From: Chloroflexota bacterium
Lineage (GTDB): Bacteria > Chloroflexota > Dehalococcoidia > Lucifugimonadales > Lucifugimonadaceae
Reading direction: 5' to 3'
Assembly: GCA_013204545.1 (NCBI GenBank)
Contig: JABMNN010000122.1
Location: forward strand, 1 to 39,293
Length of the DNA: 39,293 nucleotides
Positions 35,224-39,293 of this stretch are shown here, piece after piece; the stretch's first letter is position 1; each line of letters opens with the position of its first letter. The translations under genes and the position numbers were made by a program. The notes beneath the pieces were generated by a model. It was given only the letters and a program-made list of their open reading frames with translations. It was not told the origin of the DNA and made no database searches.

Positions 35224-35229
35224 TATAAT
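35224..35229 (+). promoter_or_regulatory. Candidate promoter -10 box (TATAAT) for the structured leader region
   Basis: An exact TATAAT, 45 bases downstream of the previous stem-loop and about 93 bases upstream of the decapeptide ORF. No good -35 hexamer stands at 16-18 bases, so the evidence is the -10 and the position only. Confidence 0.4.
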
Positions 35230-35264
35230 CCCAGCAACGGTCTTGACCCTGGCAGGGCGATCGT

Positions 35265-35445
35265 GGGTAGAAAAACTCTACTACCCGGTAGTTCGAATCA
35301 AGAAGGAGGTGGTCAGTTTTAATGTCTAGTACCAAACGAGGTGTCCTACGCTAAAGTAGGGCGCCCTACCAGTAGGGCACCTCAAGAGTAGGACCACCCG
35401 AACAGCAAACGTCTCTGCGACAATGCTGTTCCGGTGGTCCTACTC
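35265..35445 (+). promoter_or_regulatory. Structured RNA region with mutually exclusive hairpins around a strong ribosome binding site
   Basis: Lies in the 455-base gene-free stretch between the CtBP-like and Nudix genes. In order: a hairpin GGGTAG/CTACCC (35265-35286); AAGGAGGTGG, a near-perfect Shine-Dalgarno (35303-35312); a 12-bp stem GAGGTGTCCTAC/GTAGGGCACCTC (35338-35349 with 35372-35383) enclosing a palindrome GTAGGGC-GCCCTAC (35356-35369); and a long hairpin 35386-35445 with 21 pairs and one mismatch. GACCACC (35392-35398) is complementary both to GGTGGTC at 35308-35314, inside the ribosome binding site, and to GGTGGTC at 35433-35439. No known riboswitch or small RNA family was recognised. 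The remainder, 35446-35554, has no feature that could be supported. Confidence 0.5.
35322..35354 (+). CDS. Ten-codon ORF with a strong ribosome binding site (possible leader peptide)
   Basis: ATG 35322 to TAA 35354 encodes MSSTKRGVLR. The AAGGAGGTGG site lies 9 bases upstream and is the best Shine-Dalgarno in the window, which is surprising for so short a frame. Codons 6-10 overlap the 5' arm of the first large hairpin, so a ribosome here would melt it. There is no run of one amino acid that would point to classical amino acid attenuation. It may equally be the remnant of a lost gene. Confidence 0.4.
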   Translation: MSSTKRGVLR

Positions 35446-35554: not shown

Positions 35555-36058
35555 ATGATCCGACACTTCACAGCTACCGGCTTCGTCGTTCACGACGATA
35601 GCACCTTGCTGCACTGGCACAAAAAAGTTCAGGAATGGCTTCCACCCGGCGGACACGTCGATCCCAACGAAGACCCTGTCCAAACAACACTTCGTGAAAT
35701 CAAAGAAGAAACAGGATTCGATGTCGAAATCGTACCAACCCAGCAATCGCTCGTAATCGGCAATCTCGATCAGGTTTACGCGCCGCACAGCATCATGATC
35801 GAAGATGTCACTGACGCCAAACACGGCAAGCACCAGCACATCGACCACATCTACTTCACTCGGCTCATCGGTGGTGCATCATCTCCGAAAGGTGAACTCG
35901 CCACAGATCATGAAGAAACAACCATATGGCTCTGGGCATCCCTCATCGATCTCCAAAATGGAACCTCGTTCAAAACCCCAACAGGCGAGCTCCGCACGCC
36001 ACCCGAAGACGTCCTAAAACTAGGCTCGGCTGCCATTCGACACGTTAGCGGCGTGTGA
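35555..36058 (+). CDS. Nudix hydrolase
   Basis: A 167-residue protein with a full Nudix box G-X5-E-X7-REIKEETGF from Gly33 to Phe55 (GGHVDPNEDPVQTTLREIKEETGF region), after the strand TGFVVHDDSTLLHWHKKVQEWLPPGG. The family cleaves nucleoside diphosphates linked to other groups, using Mg bound by the REUXEE glutamates. A specific substrate cannot be named. There is no clear ribosome binding site before the ATG at 35555. It follows the structured region at 35.26-35.45 kb, whose last hairpin ends 109 bases upstream, and converges on the broken kinase. Confidence 0.88.
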   Translation: MIRHFTATGFVVHDDSTLLHWHKKVQEWLPPGGHVDPNEDPVQTTLREIKEETGFDVEIVPTQQSLVIGNLDQVYAPHSIMIEDVTDAKHGKHQHIDHIYFTRLIGGASSPKGELATDHEETTIWLWASLIDLQNGTSFKTPTGELRTPPEDVLKLGSAAIRHVSGV

Positions 36059-38292: not shown

Positions 38293-39274
38293 ATGCATTA
38301 TTTAGGAATCGATGTCTCGAAAGCTACCCTGGATGTTTCGGACCCGTCCGGGGATCGACGGTTGTCTTCAGCAAACTCACGTCCCGGCATCCGCAAGGTC
38401 ATCAAGTGGGCGCAGGGTAAGCACGCCAGTAACAAGGTGATCCAGTTCGTGATCGAGCCCACCAGCACCTACCACCATGTGCTTTTGGACGAGCTCTCAA
38501 ACTCCGATATCGCCTTTACCGTCATCAACCCCGCAAGGACCAAGGCGTACTCGAACTCACTCGGCAGGCGTGCAAAGACCGACCGGGTGGACGCCCAACT
38601 GCTCGCATCACTCGGACAAACTCAGCAGACCGCTCGGTCACACCAGCCCGAGAAGTTTCAGGAGCAGATCAAATCACTCAGGCGCCACCGGGAATCGATC
38701 GAGCAGCAGATTCGCTCCTTGTGCAACCAGTTGGGATCCGCGACCTGCTCCCCCTGGGTCGATCGTGAAGTGCTGCAGAGCATGCGTTCGATTATTCGCC
38801 ACCTCGAAAAAGAGGTCGTATCGGCAGATCGGAGGCTGGAGCAGTTGATCAGCGAAGACGAGGTCTACTCCACGATCTCAGACCTGCTGCAAACAATTCC
38901 GGGAGTCGGCCCCAAAACGGCGCAGTTGATCCTCAGCGAGATGCCTCCGGCCTGGCAGTGCTCCACTTCAAGGGCGTGGGTCGCCTTCGCCGGGGTGTGT
39001 CCGCAGCCGTACCAGTCCGGGTGCCTCCAGCTACTCACGACTGTCTCGTATGGGCAGCAGACGTGTGCGGACCGGGATGTATATGGCGGCAATAGTTGCG
39101 ATGTCGTACAACCCCCCAATCGCAGAACTTGTCGCGAGGCTCAAAGAGCGAGGGAAGAGGGGCAAGCTGATCGTGATGGCGGCCATGAACAAACTGATCC
39201 GGATCTGTTACGGAGTGATCAAGTCTCGAAAACCATTCGATCCAACACTCAACACAACACCGAGCATAGCTTGA
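38293..39274 (+). pseudogene. IS110-family transposase with a late frameshift
   Basis: DEDD-type recombinase. The N-terminal RuvC-like domain has Asp7 in MHYLGIDVSKATLDV, Glu55 in FVIEPTSTYHH and Asp97/Asp100 in KTDRVDAQLL. The C-terminal Tnp20 domain begins LLQTIPGVGPKTAQLILSEM and reaches the catalytic serine, Ser242 in YQSG. Directly after it, near 39019-39022, the frame shifts by +1; the remainder (ASSYSRLSRMGSRRVRTGMYMAA... to the TGA at 39272-39274) continues in the other frame. Rejoined, the protein would be about 327 residues, normal for the family. The original frame stays open to the window end but reads nonsense. It is either a dead copy or a one-base error. Confidence 0.85.
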
Positions 39275-39293
39275 TTTTCAAGACGGCATCTGA

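Follow-up and report, generated by a model that had tools for sequence, protein, structure and literature searches.

A putative free-standing RNA gene with a tiny ORF in bacteria of the SAR202 order and its possible role in metering ribosome loading and release

The DNA under study, 39,293 nucleotides in length (hereafter, the window), belongs to a 2.95-Mb draft genome of a SAR202 bacterium (Chloroflexota, class Dehalococcoidia). On its forward (+) strand the window carries an element that we take, with slightly better than even confidence, to be a free-standing RNA gene of about 210 nt, representing an unnamed RNA family in the order of SAR202 to which Candidatus Lucifugimonas belongs, and metering ribosome loading and release. 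Throughout the text, g and f numbers are the genus and family labels of the genome set, g1 and f1 being the genus and the family of the window. A total of 93 canonical members was collected, from 53 genomes of f1 and 40 genomes of 16 other families, counts that include many close relatives (14 of the 40 members outside f1 come from one family). Their comparison at the sequence level shows a predicted −10 box, a strong Shine-Dalgarno (SD) sequence, a tiny ORF, a stop codon falling in the loop of a hairpin, designated as hairpin A, and a terminator-like hairpin, designated as hairpin B. No gene emerged from the same comparison as a consistent candidate cis target across families. We infer that the RNA is made, that ribosomes load on it and that being translated is more important than the peptide produced.

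Predicted parts of the element and covariation of its helices

The initial annotation had described the 181-nt segment at 35265-35445 as a switch-like RNA with a short ORF and alternating complementary heptamers. Eight of the nine heptamers that it named lie exactly at the positions given, the last GTCCTAC beginning at 35437 and not at 35438. The segment contains 11 complementary 7-mer pairs; 1000 mononucleotide shuffles had 0.9 such pairs on average and never more than 8, and only one of the 652 sliding windows of the 39-kb sequence reaches 11. Its RNA folding energy is −84.3 kcal/mol (z = −7.5 against 200 dinucleotide shuffles), the stable fold consisting of two adjacent hairpins, A (35338-35349 with 35372-35383) and B (35386-35398 with 35433-35445). 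No match at gathering score was found in the window with Rfam 15, and permissive Rfam scans, covering the window's region as well as 23 related loci, matched the element with scores that all fell short of the gathering ones; ARAGORN did not detect any tmRNA gene in the window. The earlier view of a structured RNA with a tiny ORF, fitting no recognized family, is supported, and the element is kept in relatives.

A putative −10 box (TATAAT, 35224-35229, + strand), exact or nearly exact in relatives upstream of the SD, was recognized, and transcription would start at about 35236. The exact hexamer was present upstream of the SD in 32 of 52 f1 members (2.6 in mononucleotide shuffles) and, when one mismatch was allowed, in 50 of 52 (15.0 in mononucleotide shuffles); outside f1 it was exact in 38 of the 40 canonical members (shuffles, 1.2). 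A generic promoter scan, also demanding a −35 box, gave no match in the window. The putative 5' leader (35236-35299) folds into a local hairpin, GGGTAG...CTACCC (35265-35286), which varies among genera. Support for a leader hairpin that closes near the SD came from the members outside f1 and not from those of f1: in 35 of the 40 members outside f1 the folding energy of the leader segment is lower than the mean of its own shuffles, and the paired bases among its last 12 amount to 6.7 versus 5.1 in shuffles outside f1, and to 4.25 versus 5.52 in f1.

The leader is followed by a very strong SD, AAGAAGGAGGTGGTC (35300-35314), invariant in all the 18 sequences of alignment A3. Its duplex with the 16S rRNA tail was computed using GGATCACCTCCTTTCT, as read in three relatives of other genera; a 16S rRNA family search did not retrieve any 16S gene in G000, G013 (single-contig) and G077, perhaps owing to a limit of the search, and the window's own tail was therefore assumed to be identical. 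The predicted duplex energy is −23.4 kcal/mol for the window (g1), the strongest and the median values of 35 mechanically called long ORFs of the window, each taken at its best start, being −13.3 and −7.9 kcal/mol. In one member for each of the other f1 genera the duplex ranges from −15.6 to −22.7 kcal/mol. Averaged over all members, the duplex energy amounts to −20.4 kcal/mol in f1, where no member is weaker than −15.6, and to −16.4 in the other families, where the weakest value, −12.7, falls within the range of ordinary genes.

The ORF encoding MSSTKRGVLR, reported in the initial annotation, is indeed present at 35322-35354, from ATG to TAA. An ORF is kept in all canonical members, with an overall range of 9-12 codons (93/93). 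It spans 10-12 codons in 53/53 f1 members, the start codon lying 7-12 nt past GGAGG, and 9-11 codons, of the type MDSSSRRCSR, in 40/40 members outside f1. Start codons in f1 are ATG (37), TTG (14) and GTG (2), and stop codons TAG (26), TAA (20) and TGA (7), while an in-frame TTG start occurs in all the 40 canonical members outside f1. By alignment, the stop codon is located in the hairpin A loop, which reads TAG[G/A]TGTTC in the same 40 members. The peptide sequence differs widely among families, and a frame test for peptide selection was negative: in 35 ten-codon ORFs from outside f1 (485 pairs), frame 0 was less conserved than frame +1, with BLOSUM values of 19.8 versus 25.1 and identities of 0.55 versus 0.61. 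No run of codons for a single amino acid was found in MSSTKRGVLR and its relatives. Three consecutive Ser codons are frequent outside f1, and no serine gene is present among the Pfam-checked neighbours. A second ORF, starting from GTG (ATG in one case) past the TAG outside f1, was also considered and rejected, its length varying from 3 to more than 50 codons without conservation.

The last sense codons of the ORF form the 5' arm of hairpin A (35338-35349), which contains an SD-like GAGGTG. This arm pairs with the 3' arm, GTAGGGCACCTC (35372-35383), whose CACCTC also fits the SD; the likeness of the hairpin 3' arm to the 16S 3' end is modestly higher than in shuffles (5.25 versus 3.60 outside f1, 5.21 versus 3.16 in f1). 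Right after the stop codon, the loop of hairpin A carries the palindrome GTAGGGCGCCCTAC (35356-35369), whose core, GGCGCC or GGTACC, was found in 47 of the 53 f1 members and is missing in the six members of g11. Variants of the palindrome stay symmetric, reading GGGCGCCC, GGGTACCC (g2 and two of four g4 members) and AGGCGCCT (three of nine g7 members). A loop-loop dimer or a protein site is possible at this palindrome.

Hairpin B is a terminator-like stem (5' arm 35386-35398, 3' arm 35433-35445), with two-sided changes in 16 of 19 pairs. As raw counts, a T-rich tail (at least six T in eight positions) past the hairpin was observed in 7/7 g10, 6/6 g11 and 0/16 g1 members and, on the whole, in 34 of the 40 canonical members outside f1 and in 16 of 51 in f1. 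A terminator scan found no T-tract terminator within the window. At positions 35399/35432 (columns 118/154 of alignment A5) a C faces a C in 28/29 sequences of A5 and 25/25 of A6, G078 being the sole A5 exception, with a C-G pair; this conserved mismatch is more than a plain terminator would need.

Covariation in relatives, a check proposed in the initial annotation, was observed for both hairpins in the window's family. In A5 (29 sequences from eight genera) 96.7% of the cells pair, with 132 two-sided changes versus 39.5 in shuffles, and in A6 (nine genera) 134 such changes were counted versus 39.2. The arms of hairpin A pair in 96.8% (A5) and 95.3% (A6) of the cells and, when hairpin A alone was examined on A7 (32 sequences outside f1), 32 two-sided changes were found versus 9.9 in shuffles. 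In all three alignments the signal was lost whenever the partners were slid by 1-3 columns. One of the five measures, further pair types, was unremarkable for the main structure, the count being reached by 158 of 500 shuffles in a first test and by 63 and 120 of 500 on A5 and A6, respectively.

Masking of the ribosome-binding site (RBS) by GACCACC and an exclusive pairing between the heptamers GTCCTAC (35343) and GTAGGAC (35388) had also been claimed. The former turned out to be inconsistently kept: the fifth of its seven pairs fails in 17 of the 29 A5 sequences and two more pairs fail in six, its two-sided cells (9 versus 2.8 in shuffles) all derive from three g7 sequences, to which the partial signal is confined, and sliding by −3 and −1 columns scores higher on covariation than the true register. 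The latter gave no signal above shuffled columns. A mutually exclusive, conserved terminator/antiterminator was not found in these comparisons, and the masked-RBS attenuator of the Nudix gene, as originally conceived, is not supported by pairings consistently kept across relatives. The SD could also pair with CACCTC of the hairpin A 3' arm: 94.8% of the cells allow this pairing, with only four two-sided cells versus 1.3 in shuffles, and it is compatible with the data rather than proved by them.

Distribution across the order

The family and order of Candidatus Lucifugimonas are said to be equal to f__UBA1328 and o__UBA1151 of GTDB R207 (PMC10444878). Long DNA matches were retrieved from 15 of 18 genomes of the same genus as the window, in whose own genome the element is single-copy, the sole other match being its own reverse strand. 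Contig breaks were noted at or beside the element in G001, G003, G010 and G011. In the three genus mates without a long match the contig ends at the site of the element: the Nudix match starts at contig base 2 or 3 in G010 and G011, and the contig of G001 ends within the element, its final bases still matching the 3' arm of hairpin B. In G013, another genus mate, the core element occupies 2,202,438-2,202,585. The assemblies of these relatives probably break there because of the hairpins.

A covariance model built on 18 sequences (R1) matched 42 of the 76 f1 genomes, and a model built on 25 f1 sequences from nine genera (R3) matched 53 of the f1 genomes (76 in the set). In spite of its training on f1 only, R3 also matched 32 more genomes from 13 other families among 250 genomes of the order, with rough E-values from 7.5e-9 to 4.8e-3. 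In 400 genomes of the phylum it gave five matches at E 0.001, three of them in f1. Model R2 had no match in 17 genomes of g5, g6 and g9, and its weak matches at the class level (G309, G272, G428, G308) were dropped on reading by eye.

A sequence pattern was found in 40 of 247 genomes of the order, the reversed-pattern control being found in five, and added families f6, f23, f25, f26 and f40; in the class it was found in 6 of 255 genomes. When genome contigs were scanned, 24 of the 28 stretches retrieved were titled Dehalococcoidia, SAR202, Chloroflexi/Chloroflexota or Lucifugimonas, and the matches in Microbacterium, Brachybacterium, a Planctomycetaceae MAG and Nocardioides were taken as chance. 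A plasmid search and a viral pattern scan gave no matches. The pattern matches in G050, G173, G251 and G276 were dropped on account of long open readings, an unusual start, or a missing −10 box and hairpin, and those in G239 and G249 were left out of every count. Canonical members span 17 of the 41 numbered families of the order, a lower bound given the strict filters applied above 40 genomes; most of the genomes are drafts. The 40 members outside f1 share one layout, i.e., TATAAT, leader hairpin, AAAGGAGG, TTG start, 9-11-codon ORF, hairpin A and T-rich tail; since 12 of them were found by means of a pattern demanding some of its parts, the shares of its parts are not all independent.

Nine look-alikes (G042, G165, G166, G167, G183, G185, G191, G303 and G934) were excluded from the 93. 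Four belong to f7, three to f37, one to f65 and one to f163, and seven were folded. The look-alikes of f7 and f163 have their stop codon within or next to the apical loop of a long hairpin, those of f37 have it inside the inner part of a large hairpin, and the fit of the f65 one is poorer. The f37 loci (L209, L210 and L211) carry a near-identical RNA-like stretch of more than 200 bases. It comprises an SD, a longer ORF, MEASLTCWGDGRHQSGHDGV(N/S)AS, and a hairpin of very large size, and may represent an RNA class of its own. Outside the order, L247 (G303, f65) and L216 (G934, f163) show a strong SD and a Ser-rich short ORF ending at a hairpin, with little further sequence likeness to the element.

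Gene neighbourhood

The Nudix hydrolase gene at 35555-36058 (+ strand; Pfam NUDIX, E 2.6e-13), indicated in the initial annotation as the possible controlled gene, is a neighbour rather than a demonstrated target. Of the 22 f1 loci examined, a set without g11, 20 have a Nudix gene downstream in the same orientation, the two exceptions being a locus at a contig end and one of g12 whose flanks are short. The gap between RNA and Nudix is of just tens of bases in g7, in one g3 member and in some g4 and g10 members. The claim thus retains the usual association within f1 and is weakened by the loci of g12, g11, g5, g6 and g9 and by those outside f1. The RNA is separated from Nudix in three g12 loci by a convergent gene belonging to a single cluster (one member of which is DUF2267), and this gene is also present in a fourth locus, whose flank stops before Nudix. 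In g11 the RNA precedes another gene, one copy of which gave no Pfam match, and the two Nudix loci read are both without the RNA, as are all the seven Nudix loci read in g5, g6 and g9.

The first downstream ORF with 80 codons or more was recorded for 33 loci outside f1, a set including look-alikes and leaving out the 12 canonical members found by the pattern only: in 27 loci this ORF is convergent, 5 loci have a co-directional one and 1 has none. When canonical loci were considered, it is convergent in 25 of 28, loci that are not independent, 13 of them belonging to f39. The RNA does not always precede Nudix genes, as seen from the other gene in g11 and from the mostly convergent ORFs outside f1. 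Convergent neighbours, together with the lack of a consistent cis target, are the pattern of a free-standing gene, and the small-RNA option put forward in the initial annotation is possible, considering the convergent downstream neighbours outside the family and the −10 box. Within f1 the element is usually followed by Nudix and, in most genera, rarely by a T-rich tail, so that read-through is possible; the element may have a secondary cis role in this family, Nudix often starting shortly downstream.

The upstream neighbour outside f1 (L184-L215) is often a divergent gene from one cluster of 21 proteins, backing onto the promoter of the RNA; it was of glyoxalase type by Pfam in the one protein checked. 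By Pfam, the neighbours comprise Nudix, glyoxalase, PTE, CinA, SRP54, ABC ATPase, DUF2267 and one without a match. Further along the window, an ORF starting MHYLGIDVSKATLDVS (about 38293-39291, + strand) was observed, presumably coding for an IS110-type transposase.

Proposed working, rival explanations and related systems

In the working that we propose, a 30S subunit would bind the SD, and the ribosome would translate about ten codons and halt within hairpin A, melting it; that a ribosome on the ORF may open the first stem, as initially suggested, was judged plausible. As long as the ribosome occupies the stop codon, the 3' arm released in this way, whose CACCTC is anti-SD-like, could pair with the SD and delay the next ribosome, and upon departure of the ribosome hairpin A would re-form and the SD reopen. 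A finishing ribosome would so close the SD behind itself, and the RNA would meter initiation against termination. RNA stability, a trans target or 30S sequestration are candidate outputs of such metering.

The 53 f1 members were modelled for folding with a ribosome footprint placed on the stop codon and, as controls, with footprints of the same size covering the leader or hairpin B instead. The modelled pairing between SD and 3' arm had a mean of 0.44 with the ribosome at the stop versus 0.01 in the free RNA (controls 0.02 and 0.01), exceeding 0.5 in 27 of 53 members and in none with either control. The modelled openness of the SD dropped by at least 0.1 in 30 of 53 members (6 and 13 with the controls), from 0.35 to 0.15 in g1, from 0.38 to 0.02 in g10, from 0.47 to 0.17 in g11, from 0.35 to 0.19 in g12 and from 0.32 to 0.03 in g4. 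It drops little in g3, the SD of g7 is shut in both states, and g8 and g2 are without a modelled response (0.92 to 0.92 and 0.51 to 0.64, respectively). The window's own sequence responds weakly (SD-3' arm pairing 0.13; openness 0.56 to 0.42). The lack of frame-test support for peptide selection agrees with the act of translation being the function, while the preservation of Leu and Arg via different codons in much of f1 keeps the peptide reading alive. A tentative and rather doubtful extension is a ribosome gauge. Besides the true SD, the RNA has an SD-like stretch in the hairpin 5' arm and, outside f1, another in the loop (AGGTG), against a single anti-SD-like arm; the position of one ribosome would set the helix formed, and the exposed arm or SD would act in trans, either on ribosomes or on mRNAs of other genes.

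Some of these observations would also suit a cis attenuator of the Nudix gene, in which read-through beyond hairpin B would depend on translation of the leader ORF: the same-strand Nudix of 20/22 f1 loci, the gap of tens of bases in the g7, g3, g4 and g10 members mentioned above, the absence of a T-rich tail past hairpin B in 35/51, and the partial g7 signal of the RBS-GACCACC pairing. We regard it as unlikely, because a convergent gene intervenes in three g12 loci, g11 has another downstream gene, Nudix loci without the RNA occur in g5, g6, g9 and g11, co-directional neighbours are few outside f1 and no antiterminator pairing is consistent. Just as unlikely in our opinion is a tiny-protein gene, having the peptide of about ten residues as its product and hairpins that merely stabilise or time the mRNA. 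Frame 0 is less conserved than +1 outside f1 and the peptide diverges widely among families, even though in f1 the types of start and stop codon switch with the frame open in 53/53, Leu is kept mostly via CTA, CTG, CTT and TTG (not in g11 and in two g12 members) and Arg via CGA, CGG and AGA in g1, g7, g8 and g11.

The SD complementarity in f1, well above that of other ORFs, and the leader hairpin before and hairpin A after the SD outside f1 might also be expected from a ribosome decoy, binding and holding 30S subunits through the 16S tail in slow-growing cells. A decoy needs no ORF with a hairpin-placed stop, yet both are kept, and some members have an SD of merely ordinary strength, which makes this explanation quite improbable. 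Finally, that the site acts at the DNA level, as protein-bound palindromes or a DNA-strand hairpin with no RNA role, appears highly improbable: the GGCGCC/GGTACC palindrome (47/53) and the contigs of several relatives ending at the site could be so explained, but G-U pairs are frequent in the helices, and conservation extends jointly to the SD, the start, the stop and the −10 box.

The metering RNA favoured here can be compared with several known systems. MDR-NUDIX is a Nudix-linked structured RNA motif located upstream of a Nudix gene; a structured RNA upstream of Nudix is what the element has in common with it, without any Rfam match at gathering score. The trp and erm leaders are ribosome-mediated attenuators with leader peptides. 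The element resembles attenuators of this kind in having a short ORF whose ribosome would decide the choice of hairpin, and differs from them in having no codon run for a single amino acid, no kept terminator/antiterminator and, outside f1, mostly no co-directional neighbour. The motif ilvB-II/uORFC-75-1 is likewise a ribosome-mediated attenuator with a leader peptide, according to PMC11109978. For peTrpL, a free attenuator RNA and its leader peptide act in trans, as PMC7298713 reports; the element is similar as an RNA with a leader-type ORF and a possible trans role, and dissimilar in that no operon stands behind the RNA in most of the families examined.

A literature search retrieved no earlier description of the element, the closest paper retrieved being PMC11109978. 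The fthC motif (uORFC-39-1) of Streptococcus, as described there, consists of P1, a purine-rich SD-like linker with a putative start, P2, often with an in-frame stop, and P3, with intrinsic-terminator character; its main ORF is 5-formyltetrahydrofolate cyclo-ligase, and it is reported from Streptococcus only (PMC11109978). On the basis of that description, the element appears to follow the same order of parts, with a leader hairpin evident outside f1 only and a T-rich tail past hairpin B in a part of the members, and it has an in-frame stop within the second hairpin (here, in the loop of hairpin A); we liken the two without claiming membership, as the element belongs to another phylum and has no consistent downstream gene. 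The 5-formyltetrahydrofolate cyclo-ligase was not found among the Pfam-checked neighbours of the element. The report of a similar layout in Streptococcus hints at a possible general principle.

SAR202 bacteria are widespread in the ocean, and the four cultured strains described in PMC10444878 grow at 0.18-0.24 per day. An RNA common to many families of one order and lacking a consistent target would represent a new way to read ribosome traffic and, if the ribosome gauge were true, its dedicated role would be to sense how much capacity for initiation and termination is available in ocean bacteria that grow slowly.
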